From the IMG/VR virus record IMGVR_UViG_3300007639_000007, positions 1 through 38,420 of that record: a DNA stretch of 38,420 nucleotides, one strand, 5' to 3'. The DNA comes from a virus. The notes under the pieces were generated by a model. It was not told where the DNA came from, ran no database searches, and worked only from the letters and a program-made list of their open reading frames with translations. Both the position numbers and the translations under genes were made by a program. Positions 1,395 to 31,682 of the stretch are shown in pieces; position 1 is the first letter of the stretch, and each line of letters begins with the position of its first letter.

Positions 1395-4348
1395 TAATCA
1401 CCTGGAACAGCAGTGACTGTTAGTGTATCAACAAAAGGGGCAACTGTTGGGTCAGCAGCTGTTAAGCGTAACTTGACCATAAATCGATTAAATGTACCAC
1501 CAACAGGCATCGTATTTGTTCCATCGAAGTATTCAATACGCCCATTGAGAGAATATTTGTATTTAAGTTTAACAGGAGTCTTTTGATCTGGAGAGGTTGC
1601 GTTCACAACCTTCGACATTCTCACCCAATCTTTGTTGTTTATTGATTCGCTGTCTGTTGGCGACAAGACTTTAAAGTAAACTTGCACGTCTGTTCCAGAT
1701 GGTTTAATTGCATCAATATCAACAACTAGATCTCCAGCGACAAATCCCTTTTCTAAGACAAGAATCTTAGTTTGGTATTTGGTGAAGATGTTACCGCTAT
1801 TATCACCACTCTTACCAGTTTCTCCATAAATGAGTGCCGTTGCAGTTGTATTACCAGTTGACACTGATGGGGCATCAACAGAGATCGTTGGGGTTGAGGT
1901 ATAACCACTGCCTGGGTTTGTGATAATAATATGGCTGATAGTGTTTCCGCCAGCAGGATTTACGTTACCAACTGCATAACCAGTTGCTCCAGTACCGCCA
2001 CCGCCAGAAATAGTCACAGCAACATTTGCAAAAGTGCAAGCGGAAGTATTGGTATATCCAGTTCCTGCTTCTGTTATTTTAATAATATTATTATGAATAC
2101 CAGCGTTGTTAATGATATTTGTATAAGTCAAAAACCCTGCACGTTCCCAGTTAACAATTGGAGAAACTGTGTTGTCAGTTGTTTGTAGAGTGACTCTAAC
2201 ATTTACTGCAGCCACATTTGAGTTTTCAATCAAACGTCTCTTCGAAGAAGAAGAACTTGAAATATTGGTATCTTTACCGAAACCATACTTTTCACTTGGT
2301 TGTAGTGTGATCCAATCAGACTCTGTTCCATCAAGTAATTTTGTTTTTACCGCATATGCAATTGAAGTTGGTGATGGTACAAACTGAGAGGCTGTAAGCG
2401 ACATCGCATCAAATACAAGATTTGATGCAAAAAACTTACCAGGCGTTTTTCTGCTTAAATCTAAGTTTAGATAAATGTCAGAGGCTGATGTACTAAATGA
2501 CGCACGATTGATTCTAAACATCAAATCTTCATTAAGCAGAGGATTCCAGTTTGATGCATTTTGAGATTTAAATAAGTTTCCAACATATGGCTGCTCAGAA
2601 ACTCTTCTTTGATTATCATCTTCGTCAACAATAATATCTCCAAGTTTTGCCGTCCAAACTTGATAATCACCAGATTCTGTTTTTAGTTGAATGGCATATT
2701 CGGTTTCTGCTTCAAGTTGAACTGGATCCGCAAAGGTGAAGCGAGTGTTTGTTGAAGCATTAGATGTGCTTGGCACACCTGAGACTACGATTTGAGCAGC
2801 ATCTAGTGTTTGTGATGCAATTGCCTTCTTTGATGGGTCTGGTAAACCATTTGTCACAGGAACAATTTCTACCGTAAATGGTAAGAGTTCTGTTGCGTCT
2901 GGTTTTGTTGAATCGTATGTTGGCTTTGCTTTGAAATATAGATCTACGGAGGTCAAAAACATACCATATTGTTTTACTGCAGCTCCATCAACTATCAATG
3001 CACCGCGAGGAGTAAAGAATGTTTGGCACATAAACTTACGATCGTTAAGTGCTGGTGTTTGCTGAGTTACAGAAGTTGGTGCTTGACCACTGGCAGGAGT
3101 TTGCTCATTAAGAATTGGATTTCTTGTATTAATATTGGTATTTGTTTTACCAAGCGCTGTGTATGCTGCAAATGCGCGCATTTTATATGCATTATCATTA
3201 TGCGTTGCAGTATCAGTGATTGTAAATTTACGTTCACCTGTTAACCAACGCAATCCTGGTTGCGCTGGAATGTGGAAAATACCAAACAATCCACCAACAT
3301 CATTACACTTATGTTCTCCAACAGAGTAGACTGAGTTTGATGTGCAGTTTGCAGGCAAATCTTTATCAACAATCGCCTCAAGCCAGCCTAGTGTAGTATT
3401 GGCAGAAGTTGCAACAACATTAGCCTTGAAGCCCATGTTGGTTCCAGAAACGATAGAAATCGTATTACCAACAATATCTGAGAGCCCATCACGGCTAACA
3501 TTATTAGATGATAAAATAATAGAACGACTATTGATCGTATTTGCAGCAGTAACAACAGAAGACAACGCAACATAGGCATTTGCGCTTGATACTGTTATAG
3601 TTTTTCCGCTTGATGATGTTAATGTTTCACCAGCCTGAAATCTATTGTTTGAATACAAATTAGAAATTTGACGTTGTTCAATACTAATTCTTGTAGAATT
3701 GAAAAGTTTACTGCGTGAGCCATTCGTTACATCTGTGTAGAAAGATCCTGTTAATGGTTCAATAACCAGCACACCATCTGATGCGTTTAGTTTTTCCCAT
3801 CTCTTAACCTTTCCTCCGAAAGAAAAGTCTGGAGAAAATGTTTCAGTGAAAATGTCATAATTAAAAATTAGATTATCTTCGGTCTGGTATACAATATCAT
3901 TAACAAGATATTCAGTATCTGAAAGATCAGCAGAGCCTGATGTTTTACTTACTTTAAGTGTAATGAAGTTATCGTTTAGATAAATTTGATTTTCTGTTCC
4001 AGTAACTGAGGTGCCAAGAATTTCTGCATATGCCTTCGATGTTGCACCATACAACCCCTCATTAATCTTTAATTGAGTGAATGTTGTATTTGCCGTGACG
4101 TTGATATAAGATGCTCTTTGACAGAAATTGTTTACACGAATTTCGTCAAAAAATAAATTAGCAGATTGAGCTGGCTTTAAACCTTTAGCAGCAAAATTAA
4201 TATCGTTTTCGCGAATAAATGGAGTCAATCCAATTCCAATTGGATTGGTATCATCAGAACCTGGTCGACCAGGTCTGAGCGGAGTTGCGTTCGGATCATC
4301 TTCACCGCGTATTCTATTTCTATTAGCCGCTGCTATCCCTTGTCCCAT
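1394..4348 (-). CDS. Large baseplate/tail structural protein (984 aa)
   Basis: This 984-aa protein has no signal peptide or enzyme motif. It starts with a polar Pro/Gly/Asn-rich segment, continues with long beta-rich regions, and has a C-terminal third with Gly-rich motifs of the GSGYTSTPTISV type (about residues 800-860), a pattern that recurs in several other proteins of this window. Similar long proteins lie downstream of gp8 in marine T4-like phages, in the region that holds gp9-gp12 fibre connectors in T4. A baseplate-periphery or fibre-attachment role is inferred from context. The gene lies 18 bases after the DUF4815 gene. Confidence 0.7.
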   Translation of the reverse strand: MGQGIAAANRNRIRGEDDPNATPLRPGRPGSDDTNPIGIGLTPFIRENDINFAAKGLKPAQSANLFFDEIRVNNFCQRASYINVTANTTFTQLKINEGLYGATSKAYAEILGTSVTGTENQIYLNDNFITLKVSKTSGSADLSDTEYLVNDIVYQTEDNLIFNYDIFTETFSPDFSFGGKVKRWEKLNASDGVLVIEPLTGSFYTDVTNGSRSKLFNSTRISIEQRQISNLYSNNRFQAGETLTSSSGKTITVSSANAYVALSSVVTAANTINSRSIILSSNNVSRDGLSDIVGNTISIVSGTNMGFKANVVATSANTTLGWLEAIVDKDLPANCTSNSVYSVGEHKCNDVGGLFGIFHIPAQPGLRWLTGERKFTITDTATHNDNAYKMRAFAAYTALGKTNTNINTRNPILNEQTPASGQAPTSVTQQTPALNDRKFMCQTFFTPRGALIVDGAAVKQYGMFLTSVDLYFKAKPTYDSTKPDATELLPFTVEIVPVTNGLPDPSKKAIASQTLDAAQIVVSGVPSTSNASTNTRFTFADPVQLEAETEYAIQLKTESGDYQVWTAKLGDIIVDEDDNQRRVSEQPYVGNLFKSQNASNWNPLLNEDLMFRINRASFSTSASDIYLNLDLSRKTPGKFFASNLVFDAMSLTASQFVPSPTSIAYAVKTKLLDGTESDWITLQPSEKYGFGKDTNISSSSSSKRRLIENSNVAAVNVRVTLQTTDNTVSPIVNWERAGFLTYTNIINNAGIHNNIIKITEAGTGYTNTSACTFANVAVTISGGGGTGATGYAVGNVNPAGGNTISHIIITNPGSGYTSTPTISVDAPSVSTGNTTATALIYGETGKSGDNSGNIFTKYQTKILVLEKGFVAGDLVVDIDAIKPSGTDVQVYFKVLSPTDSESINNKDWVRMSKVVNATSPDQKTPVKLKYKYSLNGRIEYFDGTNTMPVGGTFNRFMVKLRLTAADPTVAPFVDTLTVTAVPGD

Positions 4349-4366
4349 GTTACATTTTCCTCGTTA

Positions 4367-7300
4367 TTATTCGGCTGGTGTTAGTTCTTCAGTGCTTGAT
4401 CTACCTAGATTTGATTCTGTTTCGCCAGTAGGTGATGCAACAATTTGTCTATTATAGGCATATCCAGCTGGGAATGTAGATAATCCAGATTCGTTAGCAA
4501 CCTTACTTGGCGCACCAGTCCAGGCATCTTGAACAAAGGTCTCAGGAGATACGCCAGCAAAATTCAATGGCACATACGCTACTGACTTTGGTTCGAGGTC
4601 TGTAGGCGCATTTGAATAGTGCGGAACTGTAACAGTCTGTCGTACATTAATTGCTTCAGAATCACCAACAACACCAGGATTTTTATAAAGATCATCACTG
4701 TATTTATAGCTGCCAAGATCCTCGTTACTCAACGTATCACTGAGTGCTGGATCTTGCTCTGGTTCTGTTTGAGTTATTTCATATGTTCGACCACCAACAT
4801 CAGAAATATATGGAGCATATTCTAGTGAATAGAAGTAGTCACTTTCAGGAGTTAGTGTGATTGCTCCCTGATCAAACTTGGCTACGATTCCAGGCTGCAC
4901 GACTGATTGAGTAGAGGCAAGTCGCTGCTCAAGTGCTTTCACTTCAGTGAAACTACATGCAACGAACTTATCAAAAACTCTACTATCATTTAAGTTTACA
5001 GGCTTTAATCCAAGAGTAGAAACATCTTGATATGGACCTAGATATCCTTTCTCAATACTTGCAGCAAAATCCTTTGTATAATCTGCAATTTGCTTATTTT
5101 CAAAATCATCTACAATCAATCCAACAACTGGTTTTGTAACGCTTGGATTGGTTGGGCTTACTTGTGGATTGTTAAGTGCTGCTTTTTCTTTTTCTAGCAA
5201 TGTAATTCTAGCGTCAAGAACAGCAACGTCATTATCAATTCTAGCAATATCCTTCATAGTATATCTTTTATTTTCAATATACTCTAGACTGATAGATCTG
5301 TGTGATGGTGTATATGGTGGAATTTTAATGACGTACAATGCCATTGAATTTTCATCTTCTGCAGGTGCTACTGGAGCAACATCTGGAACGCCAGTTAGAA
5401 GTTTAAATTCTTTATCCTTTGTGACAACCAATTTATCAATTCTACCCAAGTAATAATCATAGTCTAATTCAAATGGTATTGTTGCATCTGGTTTATAGGT
5501 GATAGCACCACCAGTTGCTGGTTCTTTAAATTGAATGTTTTGAGTAATTAATTCAATTGCACTGTTAACAGCAGAGTATGTAAATCCGCTGCTCACTCTA
5601 ACAGCTGTTGCATTTATTACAGTTTGAATTGTTCGAACTTCACCATTAACTCTGAGTAATGATCCCACAGTTAGAGGAGGAGAAATAACATTTTGACTCA
5701 ATGATAGGTTAGCAGTGACTAGTGTGCTAGATGTTGTCACATTAACTGCTGCATTTACGACCGCACCCTTATATGGTGCAACTTCAATACCAGATTTTCT
5801 TACAGGTCTCAAATCAATGCAATTTTGAAGTTCGTACAATTCACCTGATGGTGATGCATATGGAGGAATTAATCCAGTATCATACAACGTAGTTTTGTCA
5901 TACGAAGAAGCTGAAGTATATCCTTTACCACTATAAGAGAACGAATCAAATAGTACTGCAGTTTGTCCAACAGGAGGATTTGCTGTCGCCTTCAAGGTGA
6001 TTGCAGCGTGATCATAATAATTATCTTTCTGACCGCTAATAAATGTATAGCGATCTGTAATATCAGTCATGTTTGAAGTGTTTGGTGCATGACTAATATT
6101 TCCAGACTGATAAATCTTATTAATTTTGATTACGTCAGGAACAAAGAGTGACTGTCTTTCACCTGCAGTTTTTGCAATAGTATTTGCATGTTGATACCAA
6201 ACAATTCCGTTTGCACTATCGATTGTAACGCCAGGAACTCCACTAATTGCAGTACCGTTCGTTGGCACATCATTAACAATAACTGGACTTCTAGCAACAC
6301 CAAGAGCAGAAATTGAGGACACCTTTGTTTTTGTTCTTCTAAATCCGCTTTCTGCACTAGAAACTTTAGTCGTAATATAGACATCACCAGTAAATGTTGT
6401 ACCAGAACCATTTTCTGTATAGAATGTTAATTCTTTATTTGTGGTTCTTAGAACAGATCGTGGACTTGCTGTCATATCGATGATTGCGCCAGCATTTGTG
6501 TTTGATTTTGCAACAACAATAATATTAGCAAGAATCTCAGAACTTGATAGTGTTGATCCGTTTGTACCGTAGGTAATTACCTCATTAGTATCAAACGAAC
6601 CAGAAGAAATCGTTGCGGCACCATTAGATGTGAAACTGACTCCAGAGAATAATTTTCTTCTGGAAATATCAACATTGGCATCGCTACCATGTTTCACATA
6701 AACTGTCTGACCAATTCTGTCAGAACCAACCTTAAAGATATTCTTATCAACTAGTGTATCTTGAATAAAGGTGTTACCCTTTGAGTTTTTACTTCCACTT
6801 GCGATATTTGCTTGTAGATTTGCAGAAGTATATGATGATGCGGCATTCACTGTCATGATAGATTTAATAACATCAACTGGCATTGATAGAGTAAACACAG
6901 TACCGAGTGTTGGTGCACTAGTTGTTGCTGGCGTAAACTCTACAACTTTAGTTGATCCATCATAATATGTTACAGTATGTTTTGTTCCAGTTGCAGTGAA
7001 TGTAACTGTGCAATTTTTGTAAGCATCTGATACAGAAGAAAAATATTGATTTAATTTTAAAGAAGTTGCGTTTGATGACAATCCATTTGCAGCACTAGTG
7101 ATAGGTGTAAAATTGACATCTGTCAAATACAAATAGTATTCATTTGTAGCACTTGTTCTATCAATATTCTTAACTCTAGCACTACCAACTCTTGTTGAAT
7201 AGTATTTGGCTGTGTTGGCATCTAGTGTGACTTGGTTGTTTGAGACACAGTGCAGATCAATGTCTTCATAATTCGTACCAAATACGATTCCGTTTGCTGA

Positions 7301-23985: not shown

Positions 23986-24533
23986 TGCCATCACTTTTTG
24001 ACAAATTAAGTAGAGAGATGAATGCCGCAGGTATTCGTCCAAGAACAGACGCAGCTCGAGCATGGCTTGGGGCTAAGATCGGAAAACTTCGAATCCCATC
24101 CGACCGTTCAAATATCTTAAACGATGCATCGCGTATCTCAGCAAAGACACTGATAGGTCGTATGTATTTCTATCATTATGACCCTAAACTCAAGGATACG
24201 CTTCCTGTCTACGATAAGTTTCCGCTTGTAATTCCAATTGAGCCTTATAGCGACGGATTTTTGGGGTTAAACCTTCATTATCTCGATCCATACTCTAGAT
24301 TAGCACTTCTTGATCGCTTATTGGATTTCGCTAACAACGATAAATATAATGATACGACGAAACTCAATTTGTCGTATGATCTTTTGTCAAGTGCTAGAAG
24401 ATACAAACTCTTTGAGCCATGCGTGAAACGCTATTTGCTGAATCACATCAGATCTTCTGTGATATACATTGAACCAGACAACTGGGAAACAGCAATCTTT
24501 TTACCAACTGCAAAAATGGTGTATAAACGATAA
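23985..24533 (+). CDS. Conserved phage assembly protein, unknown (182 aa)
   Basis: This 182-aa soluble protein has a core SAKTLIGRMYFYHYDPKLKDTLPVYDKFPLVIP followed by SDGFLGLNLHYLDP (about residues 50-100). I associate that signature with a small conserved protein of marine T4-like phages that has no assigned function. The remainder is helical with a C-terminal IYIEPDNWETAIFLP motif. It overlaps gp4 by TGATG and the next gene by TAATG. A head-completion or tail-joining role is possible from these neighbours only. Confidence 0.65.
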   Translation: MPSLFDKLSREMNAAGIRPRTDAARAWLGAKIGKLRIPSDRSNILNDASRISAKTLIGRMYFYHYDPKLKDTLPVYDKFPLVIPIEPYSDGFLGLNLHYLDPYSRLALLDRLLDFANNDKYNDTTKLNLSYDLLSSARRYKLFEPCVKRYLLNHIRSSVIYIEPDNWETAIFLPTAKMVYKR

Positions 24534-25264
24534 TGGCACTAGATGAACCACAAGAAGTTATTCAAGAATTTGTAGTTACAACCAATCGCCCACCTTATAA
24601 CTATTATGACGTAAATAAGATTTTACGACATAATCTCTTAAAGAGCGCGAAGTTTGCCGTCCAGTTTCCATCTCTTCCAGAAATTATTGGAATGAGTGTT
24701 AAGAGTGAAGACTTAACGTTCCTTTGCGACTCAGTAGAATTCCCTGGACAATCGCTCACAACTACCGAATTCAGAACACCAGGTAAACTTAAACTCAAAG
24801 TTCCATATCTTCGCGAACAGAATGAAGTTACAATGACATTCTATCATAGCGAAGAATTCCCAATGTATGATCTATTCGCAAATTGGATCTCAAACTCCTC
24901 GCCAACAAATACAACAAATTACTATTTCGACGAGATCGTTTGTCCAGCGATAAACATCGTTCAGTTTGATGAGGTAAGTGGGTATCTTGGACTAAAAAAT
25001 AACATGTCCAAATACATGATGGTCATTTTACGAAAAGCCTATCCTTTGAACTTTGCCTCCATGCCTTCTAATTGGGCAGACGACGGATACCATAAAATGA
25101 CAGTCACGTTCTTTTATGAAGAACTCCAGACGCAGTGGGCAGCAGGAAGAAGTCTACCATTTATGGCTGATAGATTTGGCGTAACTACAGATAATACAAA
25201 TGCCGACCCATCAAATAAGGGAAATCCAATATCTAATCAAAATCAAAATCAAATAGGAATATAA
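24533..25264 (+). CDS. Tail-tube-fold baseplate protein, gp54-like
   Basis: This 243-aa protein has conserved segments of the gp19/gp54 tail-tube fold in T4-like phages: AKFAVQFPSLPEIIGM, LTFLCDSVEFPGQSLTTTEFRTPGK, KVPYLREQNEVTMTFYHSEEFPMYDLFANWI, YYFDEIVCPAINIVQF and AYPLNFASMPSNWADDGYHKMTVTFFYEEL. T4 gp54 (320 aa) sits with gp48 and initiates the tube. The length and C-terminus are closer to gp54-like proteins of marine phages than to gp19, but I cannot exclude a second tube-related paralogue. Confidence 0.75.
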   Translation: MALDEPQEVIQEFVVTTNRPPYNYYDVNKILRHNLLKSAKFAVQFPSLPEIIGMSVKSEDLTFLCDSVEFPGQSLTTTEFRTPGKLKLKVPYLREQNEVTMTFYHSEEFPMYDLFANWISNSSPTNTTNYYFDEIVCPAINIVQFDEVSGYLGLKNNMSKYMMVILRKAYPLNFASMPSNWADDGYHKMTVTFFYEELQTQWAAGRSLPFMADRFGVTTDNTNADPSNKGNPISNQNQNQIGI

Positions 25265-25276
25265 TGAGGAATTGAT

Positions 25277-26032
25277 ATGCCTTTACCAAAAATAGATTCA
25301 CCAATCTTTGAATTGAAATTAGTTTCATTACCAAACCCAGTTAAGTTTAGACCGTTCTTAGTAAAAGAAGAAAAATTACTTTTAATGGCACTTCAGGGAG
25401 AAGATGAGGACAATATCTACAAAACGATTAAACAAGTCATAAACAATTGTTTAATTAGCGATATCGATATTGATACGCTCCCAATTTTTGACATTGAATA
25501 TTTGTTTTTAAATGTTCGTGCGCGATCAATGGGCGAATCAATTGAAAGTTACTTTATGTGTCGTAATGTGGTTGGTAAAGATAAAGATGAAAATGGAGAA
25601 CAAATTGATGTTGAGTGTAAGAATTTAATGCCAATTAGTATTAACATTCTTGACATTAAACCACCAGTTACCGACGTACAATCTAAAGTTTATGTGACTG
25701 ATAAAATTGGAATTCAATTAAAGTTTCCAAATTTAAGATCATTTAGATCAATTGAAATGTTGTCAAATGAATTGACAAACGAAAAACTCTTTGAGTTGAT
25801 TTACGAATGTACAGATTATGTTTTTGACGAAAATGGGGTATACTATGCAAGTGAATCTTCGAAAGAGGAAGTGCTGCAGTTCATTGATGCTCTAACACAG
25901 GAACAGTTTGATCGTATTGTTGGCTTTTTTGAGAGTCTTCCGAAAATTAAACACGACACAACAACAACTTGCCAAAAGTGTGGATTCAAACATGATCTCC
26001 ACCTGGAGGGTCTCAACGATTTTTTTATCTAA
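25277..26032 (+). CDS. 26: Baseplate hub subunit gp26 (T4_baseplate family)
   Basis: This 251-aa protein (T4 gp26 is 208 aa) has the family signature near the N-terminus: PIFELKLVS, VKFRPFLVKEEKLLLMALQGEDE (about 23-45), then CLISDIDIDTLPIFDIEYLFLNVRARSMGE. A CQKCGFKHDLH motif lies about 15 residues before the C-terminus. T4 gp26 acts with gp51, gp27, gp28 and gp29 in hub assembly. The gene ends GAT TTT TTT ATC TAA, and the last T-run is a possible -1 slip site into the next ORF. A separate start, ATGAGGA then a Shine-Dalgarno-like AGGA, lies just upstream of the ATG at 25277. Confidence 0.85.
   Translation: MPLPKIDSPIFELKLVSLPNPVKFRPFLVKEEKLLLMALQGEDEDNIYKTIKQVINNCLISDIDIDTLPIFDIEYLFLNVRARSMGESIESYFMCRNVVGKDKDENGEQIDVECKNLMPISINILDIKPPVTDVQSKVYVTDKIGIQLKFPNLRSFRSIEMLSNELTNEKLFELIYECTDYVFDENGVYYASESSKEEVLQFIDALTQEQFDRIVGFFESLPKIKHDTTTTCQKCGFKHDLHLEGLNDFFI
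26020..26026 (+). other. Candidate -1 ribosomal frameshift site T-TTT-TTT
   Basis: Seven T residues end gp26 in frame as GAT TTT TTT, then ATC TAA. A -1 slip here would continue as TAT CTA ACT TTT CGT and run in the downstream ORF to 26268. That frame is open from 25996 and has no stop in between. The fused product would be about 330 aa (250 from gp26 plus 80). No clear downstream pseudoknot is visible. Confidence 0.55.
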
Positions 26033-26268
26033 CTTTTCGTGATGTAAATTTGAAGGGATACTATAGCAATATGTTTACACTAGTGCATCAATATAAGTAT
26101 ACCCTAACAGAGCTTGAGAATATGATTCCGTGGGAAAGAGACATGTATATTGGAATGGTGAACAATTGGGTGAAAGAAGAGACAGAGAAACTAAAACAAC
26201 AGAGTACCGAGTCGCAACAAGAAATGCAAAAAATGTTTAGAAATCTTAAATCTAAGAAGAAACGATAA
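26026..26268 (+). CDS. C-terminal extension of gp26 by frameshift, or separate small hub-assembly protein
   Basis: The downstream frame encodes YLTFRDVNLKGYYSNMF, then VHQYKYTLTELENMIPWERDMYI and a charged helical tail. The sequence upstream of the first start candidates (TTG 26050, ATG 26071) is protein-like and in frame with the slip site. The Shine-Dalgarno-like AAGGGA is about 12 bases from the ATG, which is long. The motif TELENMIPWERD is typical of small proteins after gp26 in marine T4-like phages. As in lambda G/GT, an extended chaperone just before the tape-measure gene would make sense. It ends with a TAATG overlap to the 767-aa gene. Confidence 0.65.
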   Translation, partial: YLTFRDVNLKGYYSNMFTLVHQYKYTLTELENMIPWERDMYIGMVNNWVKEETEKLKQQSTESQQEMQKMFRNLKSKKKR

Positions 26269-28571
26269 TGACAATCGCAAGTGTTGCACAAGACCTGTAT
26301 ACAATCCAGTCTAGAAAAAATGTTCCATTTAAAACGGCAGCATCTATTCTTCTACGTGAAGAACTTGCTGCTCGATTTTCTGTATACAATATCGTAAAGA
26401 TCGTTACGAAGTCTAGTCTCCTTGCAACCATTGCGCAAGCAAAGTACGGTAAACAGACTCCTGAACAAAAAGCGCAAATGGATAAAGAAAAAGAACAGCA
26501 GCAAAGATCTGCTTTGTTCCAGCGATACACTTTATCATCAATTGCAAACTTAAATCGTAGACTTACTCTGCTTTCTAGCATTGTAGAGCGAAACAATCAA
26601 CTTGTAACAAATCTGTACAATGAGATTGGATCATATAGAATGGGCAGAAGAATCAGTCCTCAAATGCTTTCAAATCCGAGAGCAATTAAGATTCCGCTCA
26701 ACAGATCAATTAAAGGAAAACTCGACGAACTGTCTGCTGAACTTGCTGAACTGAAGAAAATAAAAACGATACAAAAACAATATAGACAATCCAGACCAGC
26801 TCCCAAAAAAACTAAAAAAGAAACAGAGTCTGATTCAACTAGTGGATTAATCTCTTTTCTATTATCTAATCCAAGACTAGCAATGACATTGATGGGTGGA
26901 GCAGGAACGGCAATTGGTCTTGGGACATTTGCTGCACAAATTGGATCACTAATTACCGCACCAAAATTAATTGGTCGAATGACGGATAGATTTAGTGGTA
27001 AGCCTGGGTTTGAAAATCCATTGGCAGAAGAAGCCAGTCAATTTTTTGATCCACTTTTGATGGGAGCAGCGGGATACACTGCGGTAAGAGGTGGTCTTGC
27101 GGCAACTTCAATTGGGTATGATTTAGTACAAAAAATGAAGGCAAAAAGATTAGAGAAACAATTAACAGAAAGATATGCCAGTGGTAAGGGTCCACTTGCT
27201 CAAAAGTCAAGACCTAGAGAAAGAGCACAAAGAATTGTTCAAAGAAAGTCTGGACAAATCGGAAAATGGAAACAATTAAGTCCAGCTCTAAAAGGAATTG
27301 CGAAAAGATTACCAGCATTCATGGCTGCAGATGTGGCATATGAAATTGATAGAATGTCTGGATATGTGGCAGATCATTCTACAAATAAGATGAATGATAG
27401 CCAATTTAAAGAAAACATGACCAATAGTTATGCAGAACTTATATCAACTGTCGGAATTGGTGGTGTTGCCACAGCGTTTGGTGGGATCATAGGAACTGCA
27501 GCGTTCCCAGGTCTTGGAACAGCAGCTGGACTTGTTGGTGGTGGTGTTCTTGGTGCAATTGCGAGCATTTACGTTGATGAAGAAGATTTAGATGGAGTTG
27601 CTTCAAAAGTATTTGATATGATACATCGCGACATAGCACTTCGACTTGAATCATCTAAAGAAACTCCAGGGACGCCACCAGTCACAGGCAGTCGTCGAAG
27701 AGTTGGACGGCGCGAAATAACAGCAAGTGACTATGCAAGAACTCAAGTTGCTGCTACTCCAGTGACAAAAAATTCTGGAAGAAAACTGCTTGATTACATT
27801 GGAAACCTTGAATCGCAAGGAAATTATAATGCTGTGAATTATACAGCAGTGCAGCATGGATATCCAAAATCAATGGATTTAACCAATAAGACTCTAGCAG
27901 AAGTCTTGGCACTACAAGCACAAATGATCAAAGACGGTGCAGCAAGTAGTGCAGTTGGAAAGTATCAATTTTTGCAAAGCACTCTCAAAGAAGAAGCGCA
28001 GAATATGGGTCTTGATTTGGCAAAAACAAAATTCGATCCTGCAACTCAAGACGCATTGATCTATAATCGTTTAGTTAGAATGCGTGGCTACAAAGATTTC
28101 GGAAACAATAAAATAACAGCGCACCAATTTGTAAAGAATCTTTCAATGGAATTTGCATCAATTCCAGACCCTGATACTGGCAAAAGTTATTACCAGGGTC
28201 TAGCAGGAAACAAGTCTCTTGTAGCATTAGAAAGCATATATTCTGCAATTGGAGCATCACCAACTGATGTGGCATCAGCAGTCAGACTTGCTCAATCTCC
28301 TCCAGCACTTCCAGCAGGTGATCGATCTGCGCAATCACCACCAGATTCTCCACTTGTTGCAGATACAGATGCAATAGATGGTGAATCAACTGCAATTACG
28401 GCAGAGGCTGCAGCAATGGGGCTTTCTCAATTAAGTGCACAAGTGACTGCTGCTCTGACTGGAATCGATTCTAGAATAAATGCTCTAGAAAACTCAAATC
28501 AAGATCGATCAATTAATGTTAGAAATAGAGAATCTACGATCGAAGAACTTCGAAGAGTTTATGGTGGATAA
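26268..28571 (+). CDS. Tape-measure/hub-like protein with muramidase-like domain
   Basis: This 767-aa protein has a basic, helical N-terminus (1-185) and two Gly/Ala-rich hydrophobic segments (about 202-230 and 392-435) that could insert into membrane. A lysozyme-like domain spans about 505-660: LDYIGNLESQGNYNAVN with likely catalytic E515, GKYQF at 564-568, and DPATQDALI around 590-597. A Pro/Ser-rich linker and a C-terminal coiled coil ending in STIEELRRVYGG follow. Long helices plus transmembrane segments and a muramidase are typical of tape-measure proteins. T4 gp29 is 590 aa and lacks the muramidase. Because gp5 here has no lysozyme, this protein is the likely cell-wall-cutting component. 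The tape-measure role is inferred. Confidence 0.7.
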   Translation: MTIASVAQDLYTIQSRKNVPFKTAASILLREELAARFSVYNIVKIVTKSSLLATIAQAKYGKQTPEQKAQMDKEKEQQQRSALFQRYTLSSIANLNRRLTLLSSIVERNNQLVTNLYNEIGSYRMGRRISPQMLSNPRAIKIPLNRSIKGKLDELSAELAELKKIKTIQKQYRQSRPAPKKTKKETESDSTSGLISFLLSNPRLAMTLMGGAGTAIGLGTFAAQIGSLITAPKLIGRMTDRFSGKPGFENPLAEEASQFFDPLLMGAAGYTAVRGGLAATSIGYDLVQKMKAKRLEKQLTERYASGKGPLAQKSRPRERAQRIVQRKSGQIGKWKQLSPALKGIAKRLPAFMAADVAYEIDRMSGYVADHSTNKMNDSQFKENMTNSYAELISTVGIGGVATAFGGIIGTAAFPGLGTAAGLVGGGVLGAIASIYVDEEDLDGVASKVFDMIHRDIALRLESSKETPGTPPVTGSRRRVGRREITASDYARTQVAATPVTKNSGRKLLDYIGNLESQGNYNAVNYTAVQHGYPKSMDLTNKTLAEVLALQAQMIKDGAASSAVGKYQFLQSTLKEEAQNMGLDLAKTKFDPATQDALIYNRLVRMRGYKDFGNNKITAHQFVKNLSMEFASIPDPDTGKSYYQGLAGNKSLVALESIYSAIGASPTDVASAVRLAQSPPALPAGDRSAQSPPDSPLVADTDAIDGESTAITAEAAAMGLSQLSAQVTAALTGIDSRINALENSNQDRSINVRNRESTIEELRRVYGG

Positions 28572-30659: not shown

Positions 30660-31682
30660 TTAGATCTCATATGTGCTCAAGGAATTGTTCAACTGCTGAG
30701 TAACACGAACAAATGTTGCACGCTTACTCAACTCCTTCAATTCACTTGCTCCAACATAGGTACACGCTGAACGCAGACCACCTAAAATATCTTGCATTGT
30801 TCTACTGACTTCACCACGATATGGAATCTCAACCGTCTTACCTTCAGAGGCTCGATAGTTTGCCACACCACCATTATGCAGATCCATAGCAGTATCAGAA
30901 CTCATACCATAGAACTTATTCTCACCAAACGGAGATGCTCCACCCTCTTTATGTCCTGCAAGCATTCCACCAAGCATCACAAAGTCGGCACCCGCAGCAA
31001 ATGCTTTCACAACATCTCCAGGAACGGAACACCCTCCATCCGCTATGATGTGACCCTTGAGACCATGTGCAGCATCTGCGCACTCAATAACTGCACTCAA
31101 CTGCGGGTAGCCGATACCAGTCATCTTCCTGGTTGTACAAACAGAACCAGGACCAATACCAACCTTCACAATGTCAACACCTGCGAGAATCAATTCCTCA
31201 GTCATCTCTGGTGTGACAACATTACCTGCCATTAGAACTACACTAGGATAACGATCACGAAATTTCTTGATGAAGTCGACAAACGTTTGTGTGTAACCAT
31301 TCGCAACATCAATACAAACTCGCATCAGACGATTGCCAACAACGCTGTACACATTGTCGAACTTTTGTAAATCTTCGTCGCTAATTCCCATTGAATAAAT
31401 GGTGCTGTCTAATTTTTTAGCAAAATGCTCAATGAGTTTTGTATCACTATAATGTTTTGTCAGTGCAACCATGCAATGGTGCTTGTTAAACTCTGCATCC
31501 ATCTCTAGTGTTCCAACACCATCCATATTCGCTGCGATGATTGGAACACCAAACCAAGAGTTATAACTTCGAAAGGTGAACAATCTTTCAAGTTTTACTT
31601 GACTCCTTGAGGATAAAGCAGATCGCTTTGGTGTTATGAGAACGTCTTTATAATCTAATTTCACATCTTCAACGATACGCAT
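30660..31682 (-). CDS. guaC: GMP reductase (GuaC-like)
   Basis: This 340-aa TIM-barrel enzyme (E. coli GuaC is 347 aa) converts GMP to IMP with NADPH and releases ammonia. Motifs: [11 protein letters not shown] (11-21), [10 protein letters not shown] (51-60), CIDVANGY (123-130), [15 protein letters not shown] with catalytic C182, [18 protein letters not shown] and ADGGC, then YGMSS and [14 protein letters not shown] near the C-terminus. No CBS domains are present, and the sequence is nearer to GuaC than to IMP dehydrogenase. A phage would gain adenine and inosine nucleotides from host guanine pools. It lies between the SleB-like gene and gp33 with short gaps, so it is a co-transcribed metabolic gene. 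Confidence 0.9.

Follow-up and report, generated by a model that had tools for sequence, protein, structure and literature searches.

Tail Assembly Chaperones and Frameshifting in Known Phages

In lambda, a short tail assembly chaperone (gpG) and its −1 fusion product (gpGT) are encoded 5′ of the tape measure position (PMC5009743). A related arrangement is found in the Vandenendeviridae and Andersonviridae, where a poly-T −1 shift lies at the end of the short chaperone gene and the downstream ORF is annotated separately, as at the locus described here; these phages belong to other families and differ in their motif, GTTTTT (PMC12846349). In T4, gp26 and gp51 are listed as hub assembly chaperones, and gp51 is required yet absent from the particle (PMC3004832).

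The T4-like chaperone genes were identified by Vladimirov et al. 2022, according to two later papers (PMC10274946, PMC12846349). According to the PRFect paper, that work found the short and the long form encoded by separate genes in some T4-like phages (PMC10274946). It is also the source named in the Adele paper for −1 slip signals of the polyT type in the short chaperone genes of T4-like phages (PMC12846349). The genes are the same as those considered here; the title of Vladimirov et al. 2022 stresses a non-frameshift mechanism, whereas the present locus is predicted to use a frameshift. An earlier note on this DNA was aware of no such shift for gp26 of T4-like phages; as far as these accounts reach, this has been overtaken, since polyT slip sites had already been credited (PMC12846349). 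The frameshift is of a known kind, widespread in T4-like phages, of which the locus is a further member with a candidate upstream stimulator. Credit for the slip site thus lies with others, which may not be true of the stimulator and of a variant found in Ackermannviridae-like phages.

Organization of the Locus

The DNA analysed, called the window, is the whole 38,420-nucleotide IMG/VR record IMGVR_UViG_3300007639_000007. The locus belongs to the T4 gp26/gp51 family, as judged from PF12322, phrog_150, phrog_634, and hhalign comparisons, and its features are collected in Table 1. The gp26 ORF encodes 251 aa and ends GAG GGT CTC AAC GAT TTT TTT ATC TAA. The slippery T-TTT-TTT that the earlier note had read there is exact, and it stands in the X_XXY_YYZ register that tandem −1 slippage requires. 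No stop interrupts the −1 frame between 25996 and 26265; its stop codon is at 26266-26268. The predicted slip product, consisting of gp26 residues 1-250 followed by YLTFRDVNLKGYY...KKR, has 330 aa in total; both this length and the extent of the open frame had been proposed beforehand and are borne out by the sequence. The −1 ORF matches phrog_634, the family of the T4 gp51 “baseplate hub assembly catalyst,” and a Pfam search with the −1 extension returned weak, unrelated matches only. A single PF12322 gene is present in the 38-kb record, which may be a fragment, and gp51 occurs in it as the −1 extension only.

Table 1. Positions of the features at the gp26/gp51 locus of the window
Feature	Position	Strand	Basis
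gp26, predicted short tail assembly chaperone, 0 frame	25277..26032	+	PF12322 E 6e-58; phrog_150 E 1.4e-63; N-terminal fold like HK97 gp13
TGGAGGG, Shine-Dalgarno-like candidate stimulator	26004..26010	+	9 nt 5′ of heptamer; predicted anti-Shine-Dalgarno duplex −9.8 kcal/mol
Slippery heptamer T_TTT_TTT	26020..26026	+	Window sequence; T_TTT_TTN in 96/107 loci
gp26 stop codon TAA	26030..26032	+	Window sequence; one codon past slip site
−1 extension, gp51-like C-terminal domain, 82 codons including the two Phe codons	26020..26268	+	phrog_634 E 4e-20; pN/pS 0.26
Next gene, 767 aa, in tape measure position	26268..28571	+	Position and phrog_90 match

For comparison, a set of loci was assembled from 80 IMG/VR relatives fetched first, named phages, and the results of further searches, giving 107 loci after deduplication.

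Selection on the −1 Frame and the Question of a Separate Start

Selection was measured over codons 3-17 past the slip site in 34 non-overlapping locus pairs. In this stretch pN/pS is 0.26 in the −1 frame, on par with the value for gp26 itself (0.27), whereas the two remaining frames give 1.24 and 1.41. The −1 frame just past the slip site is, on these sequence comparisons, under purifying selection as a protein, and it is predicted to be translated from the slip site onward. That protein-like sequence precedes any start codon, as the earlier note had stated, holds up in the comparison of the window with its relative L001, where pN/pS is 0.24 in the −1 codons 5′ of the first ATG.

Most records annotate gp51 as a separate short gene, which would be translated from its own start at ATG 26071 or TTG 26050; it is listed in this way for S-ShM2, syn9, and phiM19. 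ATG 26071 could in principle initiate a 65-aa protein, with GAAGGGA lying 12 nt upstream (−5.1 kcal/mol), a rather distant placement. The equivalent ATG of the two nearest relatives lacks a comparable site (L001, −0.1; L002, −2.6), and TTG 26050 has a poor ribosome-binding site. The remark that the first start candidates have poor ribosome-binding sites therefore stands for TTG 26050 and needs qualification for ATG 26071; given the distance of GAAGGGA and its absence at the L001 and L002 equivalents, it is roughly right. The first ATG of the −1 frame is moreover scattered among loci, from codon 1 to codon 55 past the slip site, so that no start position is conserved. A separate gene would account neither for purifying selection on codons 5′ of the ATG nor for the invariant heptamer, and is considered improbable.

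Conservation of the Slippery Heptamer

All 80 IMG/VR relatives of the first set carry T_TTT_TTN at the end of gp26, followed by a −1 frame that leads into the gp51 domain. In the full set the in-frame motif is found at this place in 96 of the 107 distinct loci, far beyond chance, and the −1 frame is open in every locus that has it. The carriers include Kyanoviridae, Cr30, phiM19, S13, Chrysonvirus avDM12, Schizotequatrovirus PG216, and Menderavirus Marzo. The remaining 11 loci come from T4/Marfa-type and Ackermannviridae-like phages. The alignment of homologues that had been proposed as a check thus favours the conservation of both the T run and the −1 frame; within the clade of the window no non-slippery gp26 end occurs.

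The silent positions are informative. The T before the two Phe codons, which is the third base of the preceding codon, is present in 96/96 cases (59 expected), and the first Phe codon is TTT in 96/96 (66 expected). The second is TTC in 75 of 94 loci, a bias which is attributed to dual coding, because the −1 codon starting with that base specifies Arg in most loci.

Slippage of RNA polymerase on the T run, rather than of the ribosome, would yield the same fusion, and the seven Ts of the window would suit it; most relatives, however, have six Ts followed by C, which is short for polymerase slippage, and the strict X_XXY_YYZ register together with the Shine-Dalgarno-like element points to the ribosome, making a transcriptional origin very improbable. 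That the T run has no function and simply follows from Phe-Phe conservation at high genomic AT content can hardly be credited: the pair is indeed conserved as protein, T4 gp26 (GAG TTC TTT) included, but it alone is insufficient to explain the fixed silent positions, and Phe-Phe elsewhere in the heptamer loci is written T_TTT_TTY in just 71 of 664 cases.

An Upstream Shine-Dalgarno-Like Element

The −1 shift of E. coli dnaX is an example of stimulation by internal Shine-Dalgarno elements. In the present family, the Glu-Gly codons located about 10 nt 5′ of the heptamer are biased to GAG GGR. At this Glu, GAG is used in 53 of 77 loci against 21 expected (p 2e-17), although the loci are partly related and not fully independent, so that the p-values for selection are optimistic. 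The mean predicted duplex with the anti-Shine-Dalgarno sequence is −7.0 kcal/mol at the element, versus −1.5 at control positions; the value for the window is given in Table 1. Sequence usage thus indicates that GAGGG is favoured beyond the needs of the protein sequence, and its place as a candidate stimulator is well supported.

With regard to RNA structure 3′ of the slip site, the window showed no stimulatory fold (z +0.6), and the family yielded no consensus pairs. The family mean for downstream folding is slightly below that of controls (z −1.3 versus −0.2).

Chaperone Fold and Neighbouring Genes

A search by sequence for solved structures gave chance matches only. An AlphaFold2 model of gp26 (pLDDT 89) was re-aligned to solved structures. 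Foldseek alone returned nothing below E 0.6 against the PDB, and the chaperones surfaced only on re-alignment. Residues 1-90 of the model match 3klu (YqbN), 3fgx (RBSTP2171), and 2ob9 (the HK97 tail assembly chaperone) with Z 7.6-7.8 and an rmsd of 3.8-4.0 over 84-85 residues. Such Z values are middling when taken alone, but these top matches are clear of the rest, the next being 5ir0 (Z 5.4) and the other, unrelated structures lying at or below 4.2. The modelled N-terminal part of gp26 therefore matches the chaperone fold.

Directly 5′ of gp26, at 24533-25264, lies a gene for a tail-tube-like protein (phrog_45). On the other side, the 767-aa ORF overlaps the gp51 stop codon by 1 nt and contains a lysozyme-like region at aa 492-703 (phrog_90 match). 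Its candidacy as tape measure gene rests on position and not on similarity to T4 gp29, with which no sequence match was obtained. In the annotation of Cr30, the tape measure gene is placed two small ORFs after gp26. Farther along the window, an ORF on the minus strand (30660-31682) resembles, by eye only, IMP dehydrogenase or GMP reductase of nucleotide metabolism.

T4 gp51 and the Ackermannviridae-Like Relatives

T4 gp51 matches phrog_150 along its whole length. In hhalign comparisons the match to the gp26 profile extends to residue 201 of gp51, and that to the profile of the −1 extension begins at residue 200. On this alignment, T4 gp51 is an in-frame version of the predicted slip fusion of the window, joined at the slip site, and T4 gp26 is the short form. 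T4 and the window thus share homologous short and long proteins, the long one ending in the same C-terminal domain. In T4, however, these come from two separate genes, and gp26 carries a non-slippery Phe-Phe. T4/Marfa-type phages in general have Phe-Phe codons without a preceding T, and gp51 as a separate gene. The two-gene organization, in which gp51 has its own N-terminal domain, is not seen in the possibly fragmentary record of the window. In the T4 locus (L081), gp26 and gp51 occupy 3803-4429 and 4480-5229 and are transcribed in divergent directions; BLASTP shows them to be homologous (E 2e-6). By sequence, T4 gp51 resembles a duplicate copy of gp26 to which the extension has been joined in frame.

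The Ackermannviridae-like loci (L092, L093, L095, L086, L091, and L115-L132) keep a gp51-like −1 extension. Their gp26 ends are of the NTT TTY form, namely ATT TTC ATT TAA, GTT TTT CGC TAA, or CTT TTC AAG TAA; some have an ATG that overlaps the stop codon (TAATG), and others have ATT there.

A single history could link these arrangements, and it is put forward tentatively, at somewhat less than even confidence. The frameshifted single gene, with a conserved internal Shine-Dalgarno stimulator and no downstream structure, would be the older state across T4-like phages. The T4 lineage would have duplicated the gene and fixed the fusion as gp51, and the Ackermannviridae would have kept the extension, reaching it by slippage on a weaker U_UUY site or by restarting at a codon that overlaps the stop.

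Proposed Mechanism and Significance

The heptamer, the −1 frame ahead of any start, and the Shine-Dalgarno-like element are all conserved; this, together with the chaperone fold, supports the programmed −1 frameshift proposed in the earlier note, which very probably joins gp26 to gp51 in one tail assembly chaperone gene. Taking the heptamer, the selection, the T4 gp51 match, and the fold together, gp26 and gp51 are best read as a chaperone pair of the lambda G/GT type made by −1 frameshifting. The likeness to lambda is one of logic, with a slip site of T_TTT_TTT and a Shine-Dalgarno-like stimulator in the window.

In the proposed mechanism, gp26 and the overlapping −1 ORF would form a single gene. 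The majority of ribosomes would terminate at the TAA and release the 251-aa gp26. A minority, this rate being inferred like the slippage itself, would pause while TGGAGGG is paired to 16S rRNA and would slip by −1 on T_TTT_TTT, where the tRNA-Phe in both the P site and the A site could re-pair perfectly. The slipped ribosomes would complete a fusion of gp26 and gp51 with 330 aa. If lambda gpG/gpGT is a guide, the tape measure protein would be coated by many copies of the short chaperone, and a few copies of the long one would recruit their presumed partners, the tail tube or baseplate hub subunits.

Of the relatives examined, 14 are annotated and one further record is not; no annotation joins the two ORFs, so the annotation gap is real. 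Most genome records still show gp26 and gp51 as two separate genes, although gp26 and its longer fusion with gp51 are almost certainly both produced. Tail frameshifting of the lambda kind, to which T4 is listed as an exception, is apparently used by many T4 relatives.
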